Below, piece by piece: positions 10 to 52,863 of a stretch of DNA of 64,000 nt. The stretch is taken from positions 1,984,001-2,048,000 of the forward strand of contig NZ_CP092483.1 in NCBI RefSeq assembly GCF_022429625.1. The letters are read 5' to 3'. Every line of letters begins with the position of its first letter. The first letter of the stretch is position 1. The notes beneath the pieces are model-generated. The model saw nothing but the letters and a program-made list of their open reading frames with translations. It did not search any database and had not been told where the DNA came from. Position numbers and translations under genes: made by a program. This DNA comes from Devosia lacusdianchii (lineage in GTDB: Bacteria; Pseudomonadota; Alphaproteobacteria; Rhizobiales; Devosiaceae).

Positions 10-88
<79 letters not shown>

Positions 89-121: not shown

Positions 122-156
122 AGTTTCAACTTCCGCCCTTTACCAGTTTCAACTTT
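122..156. promoter_or_regulatory. Two putative integrase arm-type sites (left arm)
   Basis: AGTTTCAACTT occurs at 122-132 and AGTTTCAACTTT at 145-156. The same element recurs on the other prophage end (52732-52743, and inverted at 52775-52785). Four copies placed 25-70 bp from the two cores is the layout expected for tyrosine-integrase arm sites. The left pair lies in the last codons and stop of the integrase gene, encoding its KLKL and GS-stop end. Confidence 0.6.
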
Positions 157-1319
157 CTGAACTCGTTCTGTTCCGAGGCCAGTCGGCTGCGGCCAATTTT
201 GCGCGCCTGATCGGCCTCGCGCACGGCAGCGATGTTCACTGGCATATAGGTCTTTTGCAGCTTCCGGTTCTGGTCGATCGAGTTGCCCATTTTGGCCGCG
301 ATCGATTCGACCGATGCGCCGCCGGCATTGGCCTCGACCGCGCCTGTGCGGCGCATGTCCATCAGCTTGCGCTTTTCGTCCTTCCCAAACACCATGCGCC
401 GGATATCGGCGAAGTCGTCGACCAGCGAGTCCTTGGTGTAGGGCGCGGGGTTGCGCGGACGCCCTCCTTTACCGGACGGGGTGAAGCCTCGTGTCCAGAA
501 CATCGGCGCGTCATCATGCAGGGCGAAGGCTAGGCCGGCGATATACCCCTCGACCAGGCGCTGGGTGCGCTTGGACAGGATGCCGAAGGCTGCCTCAGTA
601 GTCTTGGTGCGTTCGATTGCGAATGCCATGTCCGCCCCGCTGGTGACCGCCTGGGCGGGAGTTAGCGTCCGGGTGTCGACCGGCGCGAACTGGGTGTCCC
701 ACGCCACAGCTATGATGCATGCCAAACCGCCATAGCCGGCCCGTAGCGCCCCTTTGACCATCCGCACGACTTCACCCTCGCGCCAAGTCTCCGTGCGCCC
801 AGCGACGCCCTCCTTGCGAATGGCCTGCGACGGGTCGTGGTCAGGCGTGCAGAGCTTCATGCTGGCGAGGACGCGATAGAGCGCGCGCCAAGTCTTGAGA
901 GCACGCCCGGCCTCGCCGGGCCCCTTCAGCCTGAGCAGATGATGATACCACTGGTCGATCTGCTCGAAGGTGGCGAGGCTTGGCGCCGTATCGCCAAACA
1001 CAGGATCGATGTACTTCCACCCGCGCTCCCAGTCCTCGCGGGTGCGAGGGGGTTTCTTTTGCCACTCGTTGGATAGACGGAAACGGGTGAAGCCGTCGCC
1101 CATGCTGCCGGTCGGATAGAAGCGCGCCGGGGTGGGTTCCAAGCCCTTGCGGGCGCGCTGGTAGCGCTCCTCCCATTCGCTGGCGATCTTCCACGCATCT
1201 GGGCCATCGTGGCCGCATGGCACGATCTGAAAACCCATGCGCTTCATGGCAGGCGTCGGCAGCCAATAGCCATGCTTGCCCTTGCGGACGACGTAGTGCT
1301 TGATCTTGATGCTACCCAA
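126..1319 (-). CDS. int: Tyrosine-family phage integrase
   Basis: Catalyses site-specific recombination between attP and the tRNA-Asp attB. The C-terminal catalytic domain shows MRRTGA (box II Arg near residue 324), GNS in place of the usual GHS near 345, and the nucleophile in TYMPVN (Tyr near 358). An N-terminal basic segment probably binds arm sites. I place the start at TTG 1319, overlapping the stop of the upstream small gene, giving 397 aa. The frame stays open to 1493, and the first internal ATG is at 1247. The gene ends 40 bp from attL and its 3' end carries two arm-like repeats. The family is clear; the start is less sure. Confidence 0.92.
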   Translation of the reverse strand: MGSIKIKHYVVRKGKHGYWLPTPAMKRMGFQIVPCGHDGPDAWKIASEWEERYQRARKGLEPTPARFYPTGSMGDGFTRFRLSNEWQKKPPRTREDWERGWKYIDPVFGDTAPSLATFEQIDQWYHHLLRLKGPGEAGRALKTWRALYRVLASMKLCTPDHDPSQAIRKEGVAGRTETWREGEVVRMVKGALRAGYGGLACIIAVAWDTQFAPVDTRTLTPAQAVTSGADMAFAIERTKTTEAAFGILSKRTQRLVEGYIAGLAFALHDDAPMFWTRGFTPSGKGGRPRNPAPYTKDSLVDDFADIRRMVFGKDEKRKLMDMRRTGAVEANAGGASVESIAAKMGNSIDQNRKLQKTYMPVNIAAVREADQARKIGRSRLASEQNEFRKLKLVKGGS

Positions 1320-1575
1320 GGCGAGCCAGTCTTTCCGCGAACCCGTCGGCGGGATCGCCGGCGACCGGCTGATTCTTCGCGAGACCTGAGCGCCGGTCAA
1401 GCCATGCGTCGATGGCCAGTAGATCGTAATTCCCGGTAATCCCATCCGCTGCGGGGAAACCCTGGCGGCGAAGTTCGGCACCAATCTCGACAAACCGCGC
1501 CACGGTCACACCGATCCGGCGCGCGGCAACTGCCGGCGGCACACATCTCGGCTGAACGTGGAAGCGCATCGTCAT
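1312..1575 (-). CDS. Small AlpA/excisionase-like DNA-binding protein
   Basis: An 87-aa protein directly upstream of and overlapping the integrase start. The segment PPAVAARRIGVTVARFVEI followed by NYDLLAIDAWLDRRSG has the shape of a MerR/AlpA-type winged helix that ends in a 'D..AIDAWLDRRSG' tail, common in proteins next to rhizobial phage integrases. It may act as a recombination directionality factor or integrase regulator. The role is inferred from fold and position. The start may be M1 or M3. Confidence 0.65.
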   Translation of the reverse strand: MTMRFHVQPRCVPPAVAARRIGVTVARFVEIGAELRRQGFPAADGITGNYDLLAIDAWLDRRSGLAKNQPVAGDPADGFAERLARLG

Positions 1576-6209: not shown

Positions 6210-7085
6210 TTACTCCGCGTCGCCGGGGAAGTCGTCATCGCTGCCGGTGATGGCTGCGAGGCGGTCCGTCTTGGCGGTGTTCAGCTTGGCGCGCCAGTCC
6301 TCCGGCATGTCGGCGAGCGCCTTGACGGTGGCGGGGTGGCTGAAGAGGGCCTCGACCTGATCGGGCGTCGCCTTGTCGGCAAGGGCTCGGGTGATGCGGT
6401 CGAACATTTCGCGCGTCACGATGGTGACGTCACTGACCTTGCCCTCGATCTGGCGGGGCTGCTGGGCCTCCTGCGGAGCCTCAGGAGCGCCATTGCTGGC
6501 CTGGGCCATCTCGTCCCCGGTGTAGAGCCCGGAAAGCTCCTGCGGGAACGCCTTGCGTAGCGCGAGCGCTTCGGCGCACTTGGCAATCATCACGTCGGGC
6601 ATGTTGCCCCACATGCTGGTCAAGCCGCCGTCCTTCTTCCGCTGGGCATAGGATTCGAAGCGGGCGACGCCAAAGCACGGTTCGCTGAAATCCTGACGCA
6701 GCACGCCGACCTTGGCAGCGACCGGTGGGGTGCTGGACAACCATGCATCGACCCACTCGCCATCCTCGCCGCACCAGAACGGCCCGGTCTGACCGGCATA
6801 CTTGCCGCTTCGCTCGGCGATAAGGCGGAAGCCGTCGATGCTGGTCTGCACGGCCATGACTTCGCGGCGCTCGCGACTGTCCCAGCGCTTCACCGCGTAA
6901 ATCTGGCGGGCGAACGGATCGAGACCGGTGCGCTTGCACTGGTTTAGGAAAAGCTGCAGCTCGTCGTCGGTCGAGCCTTTGGCGATCGTGCGCTTGATCA
7001 GGTCGATCTGGTCATTGTCGAACACGGTCGATGGGGACTGCTGGCGGTGATCGTCGATCTTGGCGACGGCGGATGCGCGGGTCAT
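6210..7085 (-). CDS. bet: Phage recombination protein Bet (ssDNA annealing)
   Basis: A 291-aa protein of the Bet/RecT superfamily. The core motif region reads ELQLFLNQCKRTGLDPFARQIYAVKRWD, QTSIDGFRLIAERSGKYAGQ and MIAKCAEALALRKAFPQELSGLYTGDEM. It pairs complementary strands during phage recombination. No Exo or lambda-type nuclease is recognised beside it; the upstream coiled-coil protein (7088-7801) or the zinc protein could partner it. A C-terminal helical extension of about 90 residues follows the core. Confidence 0.92.
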   Translation of the reverse strand: MTRASAVAKIDDHRQQSPSTVFDNDQIDLIKRTIAKGSTDDELQLFLNQCKRTGLDPFARQIYAVKRWDSRERREVMAVQTSIDGFRLIAERSGKYAGQTGPFWCGEDGEWVDAWLSSTPPVAAKVGVLRQDFSEPCFGVARFESYAQRKKDGGLTSMWGNMPDVMIAKCAEALALRKAFPQELSGLYTGDEMAQASNGAPEAPQEAQQPRQIEGKVSDVTIVTREMFDRITRALADKATPDQVEALFSHPATVKALADMPEDWRAKLNTAKTDRLAAITGSDDDFPGDAE

Positions 7086-40137: not shown

Positions 40138-40764
40138 ATGTCCTATGACGTCGATACGGTCGCCGCTCTGGAGAGCGGGGCGATAGTCGTGCGCGACTTG
40201 CTGACCGTTCAGGGCAAGACCCTTGGCGGGTCGGCGGCGACGTTCGCTTATTGGACCGGCGAAGATAACGTCGCGATCAATGTCGTGCCGGCCGGCGCCA
40301 TGTCGCCGGTCAGCCGTAACTTCGTCGGCGGCGGCACGCTGCTCGATGTGCCGGCCATTGTAGACGCGATCGGCCTTGAAGCCCGGTCTGTCGCCTTCGG
40401 TCTCGATCACATCAGCGATGTCGTCGGCTCACCAATGGACATGGTCTACGGCAATAATGTCCGCGTTGCGCGCGTCGAGCTGCATCGTGCGCTTTTCGAC
40501 CCTGCTACGTGGAACCTCGTCTCCACCCCTCACATCCTGTTCGCGGGCCGCGTTGACGGCGCTTCAGTTGATGACGCGGCGGCAGGCGGGGAGGGCGGTC
40601 TGTCCCTCGATGCGATTAGCAGTGCGATCGACCTGACGAAGACCAATCCGGCCATGGAATCGGACGAGCAGCAGCGGCGCCGTTCTGGCGATCGCTTCCG
40701 CCGTTATGGCGATACTGCCGGCCAGGTTGAGACCTGGTGGGGCCAAGCAAAGAGCGCCAGCTGA
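40138..40764 (+). CDS. Tail hub-type protein (DUF2163-like)
   Basis: A 208-aa protein. MSYDVDTVAALESGAIVVRD, VAFGLDHISDVV and VARVELHRALFDPATWNLV with LFAGRVDGASV resemble the hub proteins placed between distal tail and tip attachment genes in siphophages. Its stop shares a base with the next start (TGATG). Confidence 0.65.
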   Translation: MSYDVDTVAALESGAIVVRDLLTVQGKTLGGSAATFAYWTGEDNVAINVVPAGAMSPVSRNFVGGGTLLDVPAIVDAIGLEARSVAFGLDHISDVVGSPMDMVYGNNVRVARVELHRALFDPATWNLVSTPHILFAGRVDGASVDDAAAGGEGGLSLDAISSAIDLTKTNPAMESDEQQRRRSGDRFRRYGDTAGQVETWWGQAKSAS

Positions 40765-43346
40765 TGGGCTTCTTGATCAACATCGTCCTGGGGCTGGTTC
40801 TTTCACTTGCCTCGACGTTGCTGCAGCAGGCTTTCGCGCCGAAACCAGCAGAGCAGCAGCGTCAGACCGGCACTCGCGGTTCCGCTCAGATCGGCGGCAA
40901 GGTCCCGCAGTACTTCCTGGTGGGCACCGTAGGCGAGCCGGGGAAGCTCGAATATCAGAACGCCTGGGGCAATGACGGCCAAGTTCCGAATGCCTATCTG
41001 ACCAGCGTCCGGTCCTTCGGAGACCTGCCGATCGCCGACATGGTCGGGCTCTTTGTCAACGGCGTACGCGTCACACTCTCGGAAGCCGGTGTCGTCGCGC
41101 AGGGTTACCCTGTACCGGAGTACAGCGGCAATCTGTGGTGGAAGTTCTTCGACGGAAGCCAGACGGCCGCCGACAGCTACCTAATCGACAAGTTTGGCGG
41201 AGATGCTGATCGGGCCTGGGCGTCCGACATGGTTGGCCGTGGCGTTCCGTACCTGATCACCACGGCTCTATGGTCGGAGACGCTCTGGACGGGCTTCCCG
41301 AGCTTCGTAGGCGAGTTTCAGGGCATCCGGCTCTATGACCCCCGCCAGGACAGCACGGTAGGCGGTAGCGGCTCACAGCGTTGGGCAGACACGTCGACTT
41401 GGGCTTTCTCCGACAACAACATGGTCATCATCTACAACATCGAGCGCGGCATCCATTACGGTGGCGCGCGGGTGTGGGGTGGGTCGGCTACGGCTGCGCA
41501 GTTGCCATATGACGTGTGGGCTGCGGCAATGGATGCCTGCGATGAACTGGTGTCGCTCGATGCGGGCGGGACGGAGAAGCGTTTCCGCGCCGGCCGTCGT
41601 ATCAGCCTCAATGAGCGCCCGGCCGATGTGATCAAGGAACTGCTGATCGGCTGCAATGGCCGCATCGCTCATGCTAGCGACGGCACGATCTATGTGCTGG
41701 TCGGTCTGCCGGCTGCGCCCGACTTTGCCTTTACCGATGCCGATGTGCTGGCCAGCGAGCCGCTCGGCTCAATCCCGTTCCCGAACCTTGACGGTATCAT
41801 TAACGGCGCCACGGCGACGTATCGCGAGCCGTCGCAGGCGTGGGAAGACAAGGAAACCGCTCCATACCTGCGCAGCGACCTTGAGGCCGAGGACGATGGC
41901 CGCCAGCAGCTTGAAGGCCTGGACCTGGGTACCACCTTTTCCGGGACGCAGGCGCAGCGTGTCATCAAAGCCGTCATTGATGAGGGACGGCGGTTCCGCA
42001 CCCACGTACCTGCTTTGCCGCCAGAGTATTCGCAGTTCCGGCCTCTGCATGTAGGGGCGTGGACCTCGGAGCGATATGGATACGAGGCTAAGTGGTTCCT
42101 GATCACTGCTCGCACCCGCTCGTTCGGATTTGTTGTGTTCGGCCTGCAGGAGATCAACCCTGCCGACCATAATTGGACCCCAGGTACCGACGAACAGCCG
42201 CTGAGCTTTGCGCCAGTGGTGACCAATCGGCCGGCGCCGCAGGAGGTATCCGGGTTCTTCGTGGAGCCAGCGATCGCGCTGGACAACGAGGGCAATGAGC
42301 GTCGTCCGGCATTTGACGTGTTTTGGTCTTCAGCATCGGTCGCGATCGACACGCGAGCTGTTCGGATCACGATGTGGGTCAACGCAGCGGCCGATCCGGA
42401 GGTGGATGATCCGGTTGTGGGAGAACTGGCGTGGCAAGGCGATGTTCCGCCCTCCCTAGGCTCGGCACGCCTTACCCAGGCCGTGATCCCGAATGTCTAT
42501 TACATCATCCAAATCCAGTACCTGTCAGAATCTGGTCGCGCTACGGTGGCCAGCGATTTGTTTGCGGTGAGGGCCCCGAACGTCAGGCTCGGCCCCCTCG
42601 ATGTCGTCTACGGCGATATCGATCTGGATGAACTCGGCGGCCAGATTGAAGGCTACTTCGACTGGATTGGTGGCAATATCCGCGATGTCATCGAGAAGGC
42701 GCAAGAACAGGACCTAGCGGGCGCTGACCAAGAACTCGCGAACGCGATGCAGTTCGATGAAATGCGTCGCAGCCTGTCTGTGGTAACCGGCGACCTCTCC
42801 GCTTCGTTCTCGGAGACAATCACTGTCGCCATAGTCCCGATGCAGGGGCAACTGGTGGCGCTCGCTGACGCGCTGACGGAGCTTTCGGCGGCTAACGAAG
42901 GGGATGTAAACACTGCGCGTATTCGCTTCACGGCGATGAGCGGCCCGTCTGGCTATAGCCGCATTGGCATCGAAACCCGGTTCGATCCTCTCGATAGTGG
43001 CGACTACCGCCTAGCCGGCAGCTATTGGGACACACCAAATAACGCATCGTTGCCAACGCGTCGTGTGGAAATCGCTCAGCAGTTCGTAATCGCCGAGAGC
43101 GCGGCAGCTGCCGTTTTTCAGCCCTTCATTTTCGAGAGCGGCAACCTCCGGGTGGCCAACGCCTTCATTGCCAACTTGACCGCGGCAAACATACAGGCGG
43201 GTTCGATCACGGCCGATCGGCTCAATGTCACGGCGCTATCGGCGGTCTCTGCCAATCTCGGCACGGTGACCGCTGGCACGATCTCTCTCGGCTCCGGTGC
43301 TCTGCTGATCGACGGGCCAAATGTCCGCATTCTGGTAAGCGACTAA
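40764..43346 (+). CDS. Tip attachment/central fibre protein (J-like)
   Basis: An 860-aa protein from ATG 40764 with an N-terminal hydrophobic segment (FLINIVLGLVLSLASTLLQQ). The body resembles gpJ-type tip proteins. The C-terminal ~60 residues have the trimerisation-type repeat FIANLTAANIQAGSITADRL then NVTALSAVSANLGTVTAGT, usual in gpJ. It should contact the host receptor or support the tip proteins encoded just downstream. Confidence 0.82.
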   Translation: MGFLINIVLGLVLSLASTLLQQAFAPKPAEQQRQTGTRGSAQIGGKVPQYFLVGTVGEPGKLEYQNAWGNDGQVPNAYLTSVRSFGDLPIADMVGLFVNGVRVTLSEAGVVAQGYPVPEYSGNLWWKFFDGSQTAADSYLIDKFGGDADRAWASDMVGRGVPYLITTALWSETLWTGFPSFVGEFQGIRLYDPRQDSTVGGSGSQRWADTSTWAFSDNNMVIIYNIERGIHYGGARVWGGSATAAQLPYDVWAAAMDACDELVSLDAGGTEKRFRAGRRISLNERPADVIKELLIGCNGRIAHASDGTIYVLVGLPAAPDFAFTDADVLASEPLGSIPFPNLDGIINGATATYREPSQAWEDKETAPYLRSDLEAEDDGRQQLEGLDLGTTFSGTQAQRVIKAVIDEGRRFRTHVPALPPEYSQFRPLHVGAWTSERYGYEAKWFLITARTRSFGFVVFGLQEINPADHNWTPGTDEQPLSFAPVVTNRPAPQEVSGFFVEPAIALDNEGNERRPAFDVFWSSASVAIDTRAVRITMWVNAAADPEVDDPVVGELAWQGDVPPSLGSARLTQAVIPNVYYIIQIQYLSESGRATVASDLFAVRAPNVRLGPLDVVYGDIDLDELGGQIEGYFDWIGGNIRDVIEKAQEQDLAGADQELANAMQFDEMRRSLSVVTGDLSASFSETITVAIVPMQGQLVALADALTELSAANEGDVNTARIRFTAMSGPSGYSRIGIETRFDPLDSGDYRLAGSYWDTPNNASLPTRRVEIAQQFVIAESAAAAVFQPFIFESGNLRVANAFIANLTAANIQAGSITADRLNVTALSAVSANLGTVTAGTISLGSGALLIDGPNVRILVSD

Positions 43347-44146: not shown

Positions 44147-44599
44147 GTGACCGGACGTGTTCTTCTCAACGCATCCGGACTCAAGGTTTCAAAGCCGGGA
44201 GTTGAGGTGACAACAACGGGGCCCGGTGGTCTCCAGTTCTCGTCAGATTGGTCGGCTTTTGGGGAGTATTCCAGCGGCTCCTACGGGGTCGGATGGACGC
44301 CTGGATCCGGTGAAACTGGTCGGCACGACGGCTCGATCTCATTCGGCAAGACATTCGCCACCAAACCTGCAGTCTGGTTTTATCTGCAGTCGAGTGGGGG
44401 CCTCGTCCCCATCGGCAACGCGGCCGGCTTCTCTCTTTCTGGCTCAGACGGCACAGGAACGCCGCCGCGGACTTTTGGCGTCATCGCGCAGGTGACCACT
44501 ACCGGCATCATCGTCACGGGATACTACGACAAGAAAACGTCTGGCTGGCCGGCACCGAGTATCACGTTCAACTACCGGGTATTTGAGTACAACATCTAG
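44147..44599 (+). CDS. Tail-tip protein, third tandem paralogue (GTG start)
   Basis: A 150-aa protein; GTG 44147 follows the previous stop directly. MTGRVLLNASGLKVSKPGVE V aligns with the other two, then SFGKTFATKPAVWFYLQSSG is similar to SFGTTFASVPPVIIIQRS in the first copy. Its 3' end overlaps the convergent lipoprotein gene by 4 bp. Confidence 0.65.
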   Translation: MTGRVLLNASGLKVSKPGVEVTTTGPGGLQFSSDWSAFGEYSSGSYGVGWTPGSGETGRHDGSISFGKTFATKPAVWFYLQSSGGLVPIGNAAGFSLSGSDGTGTPPRTFGVIAQVTTTGIIVTGYYDKKTSGWPAPSITFNYRVFEYNI

Positions 44600-45093
44600 T
44601 TGGCAGTCAGCACATGCGTTGGGAACTGAGCGAAGATCGCGAGACGCAGGGATTCAGCGACAGCCTTCGCTGCGCGTTCTTGAGCGTCGATGGCTGCTGA
44701 GTTGTCGGCCAGGACCTGACCAGAGGCGGTGTAATCGGCTGACGCTGAACGGCGCGCCTCGAAGATCACCTTGCCCTCGTAAGTTGCGGTGGCCGTCGCA
44801 GTCACAGTCGCGCGGTACGGGTCGGAAACCGGTCCGTTCGTGGCCATTGCGATGGTCCGAGACGTGGTCGAGGCGATGACCGTCAGTTTAGGTGTCTTCG
44901 GTGCCGTCGAAGTAGCGAAGCGGAACGACAGGTCCTCGTAGATGATCTGCTCGATTCTGGAGCTTGGCGAACCGAGGTTGAAGGCCAAGCTCATCGCATT
45001 GATCGGGCTGCCGTCACTGTAGACGGGCGAGAACGAACACCCTGCTCCCAGCAGGGATGCGAGCAATGCGGCTGCAATCGTCTGTCGGATCAT
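44596..45093 (-). CDS. LptE-like outer membrane lipoprotein
   Basis: A 165-aa protein with signal peptide and lipobox LLGAGC (Cys19), then SFSPVYSDGS. The mature part follows the LptE pattern: a conserved short opening, a strand RIEQIIYEDLSFRF, LTVIASTTSRTIAMATN, YRATVTATATATYEGKVIFE, SADYTASGQVLADNSAAIDA, QERAAKAVAESLRLAIFAQF. LptE plugs LptD for LPS export. Here it stands alone on the minus strand among tail genes, without the leuS/holA neighbours of chromosomal lptE. A moron that alters LPS assembly or blocks an LptDE-related receptor is possible. Confidence 0.65.
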   Translation of the reverse strand: MIRQTIAAALLASLLGAGCSFSPVYSDGSPINAMSLAFNLGSPSSRIEQIIYEDLSFRFATSTAPKTPKLTVIASTTSRTIAMATNGPVSDPYRATVTATATATYEGKVIFEARRSASADYTASGQVLADNSAAIDAQERAAKAVAESLRLAIFAQFPTHVLTAN

Positions 45094-45167
45094 CTTCTAC
45101 TACCACCAAAACTGAGCGCCGCACCTTGTAGGCGGTCAGATGCCCTTGTCAACGCAGACCACAACGC

Positions 45168-45190
45168 ACCCGGCCATGAGCCGGGTTTTT
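45168..45190 (+). terminator. Rho-independent terminator before the tail spike gene
   Basis: CCCGGC / GCCGGG with 5-base loop CATGA, followed by five T, on the plus strand. It would end transcripts of the tip genes that read through the lipoprotein gene. Confidence 0.8.
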
Positions 45191-45203: not shown

Positions 45204-47306
45204 ATGCCCGCGCTTTCCGACTATGTGAACGGCACAATCAGCCTGACGAACGGTGCTGTCGAGTTCACCGGCACGTCCACTGGCTGGCTGCTGGCCGGCT
45301 TCAAAGAGGGCGATACGATCATCGATATCACCGGGGCCACTGAGTTCATGGGCGTCGTGGCGACGATCGATGCCAATGGTGCAGGCACGCTCACCAAGCC
45401 GTGGGAAGGCCCGACTTTGATCGATGTGGCCTACCGTATGCGTTATCAGCCTGACGGCGCCCGAGTGTCGGCCCAGGCGCGCAATCTGATCGAGCTGCTG
45501 GGTAATGGCAACGTCTTAGCCCTGGCTGGGCTTTCGGGCTCTGCGAACCAAGTGCCGATGTTCACGGGCCCCGGCGCAATGACTTTGGTGCCGAAGACCG
45601 AGTTGGTAACCGGCGTTGCCTATGATGTGCAGGTGGACAACCTCGCTGATCGGGATGCGTATGATGGGCAAGCGGAGGGGTTCAGCGTCCTGGTGGCGGA
45701 CGTCGGTGATGGGCGCGCTGCCGTCTATACGAAGGATTCGGCAACGTCGGGCGATTGGACCGATCCTGCCTATGTGACCGGTCCGGTTGGCCCTATCGTC
45801 ACCATTGAAGCCGGGACCGTCACGACCCTTGATCCGGGGTCAGCGGCAACCGCAGCGCTCAACCCTGTCGCGGGCGGCTATGACTTGGACTTAGGGATTC
45901 CCGCCGGCGAAGGCTTCGTGTTCCGTGGGGCCTATAGTGGCGCCGCCGACTACGTGCTGGGCGACGTTACTCAGGACGCCGGATCATCTTGGATACTCAC
46001 CGTCGCAACATCGACTGGCAATGCCCCGCCGACGCTTCCAACGACCAGCAATGCCTATTGGCAACTTCTAGCTCGACAGGGAACCGATGGCGCGGGGACC
46101 GTGACGACTCTTACCGAGGGGCCGGGTATATCGATCGACCTCACGGACCCGACAAACCCGGTTATCGCTGCCACCGGAAGGGAGCGGCTCGCTGCCGACC
46201 GGGCCATTTTCATCCGGTCGGACGGCAACGACTCCAATGACGGGCTAGCCAATACGGCGGGCGGCGCCTTCCTCACTCTGCAAGGTGCTTGGAACAAGGT
46301 GGCGAACGGCCTCGACCTTTCCGGCTATACCGTTAGTTTCTTTCTTGGCGCCGGCTCATTTGCAGGCGTCCGAGACGCTGGAAAGCCGCTGGTTGGAGGC
46401 AAAGGGATTATTCGAGGGGCGGGTTCGGCTAGCACGACTATCGCCATGGCGGGCAACGACTGCATCGAAATCAGTCAGAGCGAAGTCACGATCGCCCATT
46501 TTAAGATGACCAACTCCAACGGGTCGGCAGTTCATGCTTATCGGGGCGGCGTTGTGACTCTAGGTGAGGACATAGACTTTGGGGCGTGCTCGGAAGCGCA
46601 CCACTTCTGTGACAATGAAGGACAGATCGTCTGCACGGACGGCTACAAAATTTCTGGGGCGGCTCCCTTCCATTTCCTAGCTCATACGGGCGGTTTTATT
46701 GCTGCTAGCGGGCGCACAGTCACCATAACCGGCACACCAGCCTTCTCCTCCGCATTTGCATGTGCCACCCGCGGCGGCATTCTAGAGGCCGCTGAAATGA
46801 CCTTTACCGGGTCGGCCACAGGTAGGCGGTTCCTGGTGGACAACGGCGGCGTCCTTTGGGCCAACAATCTGTCGCCAACATACTTTCCGGGCAGCACGGC
46901 GGGCGAGTTGATGAGTGGCGCTTACGATGATCGGAGCAAGATCGTCGGAACGGTCTCGCAATCGGCTGGCCTGCCGACGGGCGCGATAATCGAGCGCGGC
47001 TCCAATTCCAACGGGTCCTATGTGCGATTTGCCGATGGGACGCAAATCTGTTGGGGCACAATCAACTATTCGAACATCACCACTGCGGCGGGTGCGATCT
47101 TCCTCGCGGCTGCTGTGACGTGGACTTATCCGATCGCGTTCGTTAACGCGACCGAGACCGTGTGCCAGGCCAGCGACACGGGTTCGACCGTCGTGTGGGT
47201 GGGATGTGTCGCCTCAGCTACAACGGCCAGTTTGCAGGCGTTCTCGTACGCGAGCGCGTCTGGAACACGAGCGTTTAGGGCAATGGCGATTGGGCGGTGG
47301 TTCTAA
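45204..47306 (+). CDS. Tail spike/fibre with beta-helix
   Basis: A 700-aa protein with TTGGAG upstream. N-terminal ~330 residues: virion-anchoring repeats (ISLTNGAVEFTGTSTGWLLA and GPVGP-type turns). From ~335 (IFIRSDGNDSNDGLANTAGG AFLTLQGAWN) a right-handed beta-helix of the pectate-lyase type, as in K-antigen-degrading spikes. The C-terminal ~90 residues hold YVRFADGTQICWGTINYS, a common fibre-tip domain. It probably binds or cleaves a surface polysaccharide. Confidence 0.82.
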   Translation: MPALSDYVNGTISLTNGAVEFTGTSTGWLLAGFKEGDTIIDITGATEFMGVVATIDANGAGTLTKPWEGPTLIDVAYRMRYQPDGARVSAQARNLIELLGNGNVLALAGLSGSANQVPMFTGPGAMTLVPKTELVTGVAYDVQVDNLADRDAYDGQAEGFSVLVADVGDGRAAVYTKDSATSGDWTDPAYVTGPVGPIVTIEAGTVTTLDPGSAATAALNPVAGGYDLDLGIPAGEGFVFRGAYSGAADYVLGDVTQDAGSSWILTVATSTGNAPPTLPTTSNAYWQLLARQGTDGAGTVTTLTEGPGISIDLTDPTNPVIAATGRERLAADRAIFIRSDGNDSNDGLANTAGGAFLTLQGAWNKVANGLDLSGYTVSFFLGAGSFAGVRDAGKPLVGGKGIIRGAGSASTTIAMAGNDCIEISQSEVTIAHFKMTNSNGSAVHAYRGGVVTLGEDIDFGACSEAHHFCDNEGQIVCTDGYKISGAAPFHFLAHTGGFIAASGRTVTITGTPAFSSAFACATRGGILEAAEMTFTGSATGRRFLVDNGGVLWANNLSPTYFPGSTAGELMSGAYDDRSKIVGTVSQSAGLPTGAIIERGSNSNGSYVRFADGTQICWGTINYSNITTAAGAIFLAAAVTWTYPIAFVNATETVCQASDTGSTVVWVGCVASATTASLQAFSYASASGTRAFRAMAIGRWF

Positions 47307-47394: not shown

Positions 47395-47601
47395 TTAGTC
47401 CATCAGGTCCAATGCGGTCTGACCGATCTCCTGGCGTTCGTCCTTGGTGTACTTGCCGGCCAGCTTGCGCCTGATGTCGGCGAGGTTCGCTCTCTTAGCC
47501 TCCGTCGCCGGGAAGTGATCGCCCTGGTGGGTGTGCAGCCATAGCTCGGTCATTTCGATCACGAACTCGGCTTCGCTATCTGTGGTCAGCAACAGGGTCA
47601 T
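47395..47601 (-). CDS. Hypothetical 68-aa protein
   Basis: ATG 47601 with GGGAG upstream; MTLLLTTDSEAEFVIEMTEL, HQGDHFPATEAKRANLADIR. Helical and acidic. On the minus strand after the spike gene. Function unknown. Confidence 0.6.
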   Translation of the reverse strand: MTLLLTTDSEAEFVIEMTELWLHTHQGDHFPATEAKRANLADIRRKLAGKYTKDERQEIGQTALDLMD

Positions 47602-47652: not shown

Positions 47653-47880
47653 TTATGGGCTCGCGACTTTCGCGTATAGCCGGACCATCGAAACGGGCTG
47701 GCCAGGATGCTGGAAATAAACGCGGGCTTGAAGCTCTGCCCCGCGCCCGCTGCGAACCACGTCTATGCCGAGTGTCTGTCTGACAGCGTCCTCGGGTGAA
47801 CTGGCCTCTACGATCGTTTCGCCACTCGCGACGGATGTCGTTCGAAGGTCGATCACGCGATAGCTTGTAGGCATAGGCAT
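47653..47880 (-). CDS. Hypothetical 75-aa protein
   Basis: ATG 47880 (MPMPTSYRVIDLRTTSVASG); TTG 47886 is also in frame. Strand-helix-strand composition, with ASSPEDAVRQTLGIDVVRSG. Minus strand, 51 bp upstream of the 47601 start, probably co-transcribed. Function unknown. Confidence 0.55.
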   Translation of the reverse strand: MPMPTSYRVIDLRTTSVASGETIVEASSPEDAVRQTLGIDVVRSGRGAELQARVYFQHPGQPVSMVRLYAKVASP

Positions 47881-48010
47881 TCTCAAGAAAGGGCCCAGGT
47901 CGGGGCGAAGCCTGGGCCAGTTGGACGGTCAAATCCGGCCCCCTCAGACCGGACAGAGTCGATAACCTTTTTACCCGTGCTGGCGGTTCCAAAGATGTGG
48001 TTGGGGCGCA

Positions 48011-52811: not shown

Positions 52812-52863
52812 CCGGCCTGTCACGCCGGAGGTCGCGGGTTCGAGCCCCGTCTCTCGCGCCACC
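52812..52863 (+). repeat. attR core (tRNA-Asp 3' remnant)
   Basis: A 52-bp copy identical to 37-88. It lacks the tRNA 5' half (acceptor 5' strand and D-arm), so it is not a functional tRNA. Confidence 0.95.

Follow-up and report, generated by a model that had tools for sequence, protein, structure and literature searches.

An LptE-family lipoprotein gene inserted among the tail genes of a Devosia prophage

The prophage gene and its setting

We analysed a stretch of 64,000 nucleotides from Devosia lacusdianchii (assembly GCF_022429625.1, contig NZ_CP092483.1, positions 1,984,001 to 2,048,000; hereafter the window), in which a siphovirus prophage of 52.8 kb carries, on the minus strand and among its tail genes, an open reading frame (ORF) for a 165-aa lipoprotein, P0001. 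By profile and predicted fold this ORF is a lipoprotein of the LptE family, in agreement with an earlier note, made from the sequence letters, that had seen an LptE-like body in the translation. The gene (phage-type lptE) and the features that belong to it are as follows.

44596..45093, minus strand: phage-type lptE (P0001), 165-aa lipoprotein, PF04390 LptE
45037..45093, minus strand: signal peptide and lipobox LLGAGC with the lipidated Cys19, from the translation
45125..45152, minus strand: promoter-like site TTGACA-N16-TACAAG ahead of lptE, 10/12 sigma-70-like by consensus match

P0001 scored 29.5 bits against the Pfam LptE profile (PF04390), for which the cut-off is 23, and its predicted model has the LptE fold, with LptE or LptDE chains, by title, making up 26 of the 35 fold matches at E <= 0.001. 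The fold comparison thus found LptE where a phmmer search of P0001 against PDB sequences gave nothing relevant. Phage-type relatives of P0001 scored similarly against PF04390 (P0008 29.9 bits, P0007 23.6, and P0003 22.1, just below the cut-off). NCBIfam had no match for P0001 and none for the host's own LptE either, PADLOC gave no match for P0001, and PHROGs returned a single weak one (phrog_16707, function unknown, E 0.055). Cys19 is the sole cysteine of P0001 and was invariant in 47/47 host LptE rows and 9/9 phage-type rows. Across the 34 columns that are conserved in 90% or more of these 47 host LptEs (all rows outside the lptD-linked group, E2, described below), P0001 kept 27, among them C19, P43, R46, Q49, R58, R115, E139, E147 and R150; the other phage-type rows kept 28-30, and the hosts themselves a median of 33 with a minimum of 26.

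The host genome, a single contig of 4,355,240 bp, also has an lptE of its own (G000:C1:4217274-4217783), flanked by leuS and by holA, the latter confirmed by TIGR01128, and the prophage and host proteins share about 46% identity across 162 columns. The host LptE that the earlier note had imagined in competition with the phage copy is therefore present. The G+C content of the prophage gene was unremarkable at 0.604, against 0.623 for window positions 1-50000, and that of the host lptE was 0.686.

Both strands of the 52.8-kb prophage considered, the promoter-like site ahead of lptE is the sole one with at least 10/12 matches under a criterion of our own (spacer of 16-18, A at -10 position 2) that reports a consensus match and not activity. 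A stricter promoter scan, for which the last base of the -10 box must be T, listed nothing before lptE. The gene thus has a putative promoter of its own, and this, together with its orientation on the strand opposite to the late genes, fits expression in the lysogen, as the earlier note had supposed, rather than that of a late virion gene. No terminator on the lptE strand was found downstream within 44400-44599. A terminator-like hairpin on the lptE strand was seen within the 5' part of the coding sequence (window 45040-45056), and this may be chance.

The location of the gene in a prophage tail region, likewise proposed in the earlier note, was borne out by the att repeats and by the surrounding genes, which are given below.

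37..88, plus strand: attL, repeat of 52 bp that lies mostly within tRNA-Asp (10-86)
40737..43346, plus strand: J-like central tail fibre gene
44147..44599, plus strand: small gene of 150 aa, adjoining the insertion on the left
44596..44599: CTAG common to the stop codons of lptE (minus) and of the 150-aa gene (plus)
45168..45186, plus strand: terminator-like hairpin ahead of the tail fibre gene
45204..47306, plus strand: tail fibre gene, adjoining the insertion on the right
52812..52863, plus strand: attR, perfect 52-bp copy of attL

The prophage lies in tRNA-Asp between these perfect 52-bp repeats and encodes a methyltransferase, a primase-helicase, a RecT-like protein, a terminase and a portal, as well as a virion structural protein, tape measure, distal tail, J-like fibre and tail fibre. 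Despite the clear att repeats, no integrase was recognised among the near-att ORFs tested (window 126-1493 and neighbours).

Comparison with the nearest phage relative by J in IMG/VR, L159, whose J is 82% identical, showed one gene order common to both (J, 140 aa, about 125 aa, 150 aa, tail fibre). The interval that separates the 150-aa gene from the fibre gene measured 604 bp in the window, where it is occupied by the minus-strand lptE; in L159 it measured 65 bp, and these hold a similar hairpin and T run and the fibre start region without lptE. The 65-bp figure was taken from the ORF ends and the sequence, as a MAFFT alignment of the DNA misplaces bases inside the gap. Eight J-relatives were retrieved from IMG/VR in all, and none of the seven with at least 5.9 kb past the J match had a match to the LptE profile. 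The gene is a discrete insertion in an otherwise collinear tail region, that is, a moron.

Other small minus-strand genes were noted in this part of the phage genomes. Two ORFs on the minus strand lie between the tail fibre gene and the next gene of the window (47395-47601 and 47653-47886) and had no PHROGs or Pfam match, and a related phage has a different small lipoprotein-like gene, also on the minus strand and beyond the tail fibre, without a Pfam match (L160:15535-15918).

Phage and chromosomal relatives of the prophage gene

A trace of the same gene was found in a much more distant phage. The IMG/VR contig L238, whose J is 32% identical to that of the window, has the order J, two small genes, a homolog of the 150-aa gene and fibre, and its minus strand carries, immediately next to the 150-aa homolog and following it, an lptE remnant that ends at that neighbour's stop as the window's gene does. 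The remnant matches the C-terminal part of LptE only (31 profile positions, 27.9 bits) and ends in FP, as the phage-type proteins do. The TTGACA box and the leader GGTGCGGC-CTCAGTTTT are retained upstream of the remnant and the -10 is not, and because the leader is joined directly to the remnant by a short start-like stretch, most of lptE is gone there. The presence of the remnant, the -35 box and the leader at the matching site indicates that a phage-type lptE once stood there in a quite different phage, and the lptE site seems to exchange small minus-strand genes. An 87-aa minus-strand ORF (6679-6942) was observed beside the remnant, whose region is L238:6438-7025. A scan of 121 loci fetched via phage genes (L072-L180 and L237-L248, many of which stop short of the lptE site) with the LptE profile gave two matches, the window's own gene (L167) and L238, which had been fetched via the 150-aa neighbour.

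Single-sequence and alignment scans of IMG/VR found no relatives of P0001, and neither did tblastn against a phage collection (with P0001, P0006 and P0076) and against plasmids (with P0001). Protein homologs were found, and we considered the best 120 of 209 for P0001 and the best 120 of 229 for the tail fibre. The nearest listed homologs of P0001 were P0002-P0007 (49-66% identity; contigs of source 'lgn'), and all listed homologs with an organism in the source name were from Devosia. P0003 is on a contig of 2923 bp, as is P0124, an 83% identical homolog of the left-neighbour 150-aa gene, and P0007 is on a contig of 25335 bp, as is P0234, a 58% identical homolog of the right-neighbour tail fibre. 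Equal-sized contigs with tail-gene homologs were seen for two of the six phage-type rows P0002-P0007 and for 0/112 of the other listed LptE rows, which is good but indirect evidence that P0003 and P0007 are tied to phages; for the remaining four rows there was no such pairing among the listed fibre homologs.

Trees were built with canonical Devosia LptE (E1), LptE of other Devosiaceae and the lptD-linked group (E2) as comparators, after L017, L019, L027, L028 and L030, whose genes duplicate those of L212-L216, had been dropped and identical LptE sequences reduced to one. In the careful tree, which contained 20/39 canonical, 5/15 E2, 7/8 outgroup and 9/9 phage-type rows and 1/5 of the other proteins, and whose bootstrap was not fully settled, the nine phage-type rows (P0001-P0008 and P0025) formed one clade with support 99/99; support was 97 in a larger quick tree. 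Two members of the clade, P0008 and P0025, are chromosomal. Forcing these two together with E1 was rejected in the approximately unbiased (AU) test (p-AU 0.034), and forcing the entire phage clade with E1 was not rejected (p-AU 0.265). The branching order within the clade was not resolved, and a clade of P0001-P0007 alone was not rejected (0.443). We also considered an origin of the phage gene from E2 LptE and rejected it, since E2 forms a clade of its own (100/100) to which the phage-type rows do not belong. In E2 itself, at 15 Devosia loci (L212-L224, L229 and L230), lptE stands directly downstream of an lptD homolog and not between leuS and holA, a second relocation of lptE in Devosia.

P0008 is held by genome G007 (source name Devosia sp. 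RR2S18; 99% complete, one contig). At E <= 1e-5 it matched 126 of the 136 family genomes (the window's included), with a single match in 124 of these, two in the window's genome and three in G007. Its best match outside G007 was the prophage gene of the window, at 119.7 bits, and the next best scored 80.8. The intact lptE of G007 is phage-type, the other two matches are pieces of one degraded copy about 4.5 kb away, and no intact LptE match was found in this genome besides the phage-type copy. At its leuS-holA junction only 36 bp are left and no LptE was found, where leuS, lptE and holA stood together at 52 of the 62 loci examined (some genomes counted twice); the other ten comprised two for the prophage gene, two for the G007 gene, five lptD-linked loci elsewhere and the one empty junction of G007. 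There was one lptD match in G007. A member of the phage-type clade thus appears to be the only LptE of this genome, and since it is the sole intact lptE found there, the family probably still works as LptE.

The degraded second phage-type lptE (G007:C1:2781919-2782405) has flgE and insertion sequence (IS)-like genes around it, named by eye. A placement of the G007 copy inside a related prophage was considered and dropped: lptE was the only window ORF with a match in the 40 kb around that copy, a region whose genes, judged by eye, include flgE, peptidase and IS-type ones.

Possible roles of a phage-borne LptE

We favour, with a probability of roughly 0.6, the reading that phage-type lptE is a moron encoding a true LptE, which lysogens express and which acts together with the LptD of the host. 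In the lysogen, P0001 would be produced under its own promoter, would go to the outer membrane and would there join host LptD, serving as its plug and assembly partner and replacing host LptE or mixed with it. More tentatively, LptD with phage LptE, or the lipopolysaccharide (LPS) exported, may be a poorer receptor for rival phages while LPS export continues, and superinfection exclusion is the purpose that we would favour for the gene. A stronger form, in which LptD with phage LptE exports LPS yet shuts out rival phages and the native gene has been displaced in some hosts, is possible but doubtful; if it were true, cells with a displaced native lptE would depend on the phage-type subunit.

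The phage protein might instead serve as a back-up or raise dosage, supporting LPS export and outer-membrane integrity in the lysogen or during phage production with receptors unchanged. The 27 of 34 host-conserved positions and the phage-type gene as the sole intact lptE found in G007 are what a fully competent LptE would show and speak for such a role, but the host already has an intact lptE, so that the gain is unclear, and the phage-type clade is diverging separately from the host copies, which pure dosage would not require; we regard this account as rather unlikely. That the gene is a passenger, captured from a host by recombination and without function for the phage, would explain its homology to the resident copy, and the decayed copy of L238 shows that lptE can be lost. 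A recent passenger would, however, fall inside the host clade, whereas the full-length members form a separate, well-supported one, two of them are tied by their contigs to neighbouring tail-gene homologs, and conserved residues in P0001 as well as the -35 box and leader in a distant phage have been retained, all of which makes accidental capture quite improbable. We give hardly any credence to a late virion or lysis protein (a tail component or outer spanin) with an LptE-like fold, as suggested by the location between tail genes, because lptE is oriented opposite to the late operon and has a promoter-like site of its own, is missing from the collinear relative, and has LptE as both its Pfam family and its best-supported fold.

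Relation to known systems

LptDE is the gateway of LPS and a target of drug discovery. A phage-borne LptE, together with G007, would offer a natural experiment on the extent of divergence that LptE can undergo while remaining compatible with LptD, and also on whether phages edit the LPS translocon against their rivals.

According to a review, E. coli LptE plugs LptD, is required for LptD folding and binds LPS, mutations that impair its plug function disturb the barrier, and a dominant-negative lptE mutation is cited in the reference list (PMC3944529). P0001 resembles such chromosomal LptE proteins (PF04390) in its profile score above the cut-off, lipobox, fold and most host-conserved residues, and differs from them in that it is encoded in a prophage beside a resident copy, outside the leuS-lptE-holA arrangement, and belongs to a clade of its own. 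As an extra gene with its own promoter-like site, on the opposite strand and absent from relatives, phage-type lptE recalls prophage moron or accessory loci (PMC7067206), with the difference that the cargo here is a homolog of an LPS-translocon subunit.

Phage lipoproteins that act on outer-membrane proteins are known. T5 Llp acts, as P0001 might, from the periplasm on a barrel in the outer membrane, but its target is FhuA, and no likeness to a subunit of the host is claimed in the abstract (PMC9586334). LptDE itself is a known phage receptor that is blocked by a phage lipoprotein: Rtp45 attaches to LptD between LptE and LptM, and the resulting displacement of loop EL4 prevents binding of the receptor-binding protein (PMC12685063). 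The Rtp45/Oekolampad superinfection-exclusion lipoproteins share with P0001 that they are phage lipoproteins with the LptDE translocon as likely target. Rtp45, however, is a protein of about 6 kDa with a disulfide that binds LptD beside LptE (PMC12685063), whereas P0001, at neither this size nor with an internal disulfide, is a 165-aa LptE homolog that has the lipidated Cys only and would occupy LptE's own place. The earlier note's proposal of a new type of lysogenic conversion therefore goes too far in its general form, as a phage lipoprotein acting on LptDE for superinfection exclusion has been described in Rtp45. Among the papers listed by our searches of the open PubMed Central (PMC) library, none reported a phage LptE homolog in its title or abstract opening, and what looks new is that a phage would use for this a homolog of LptE itself.
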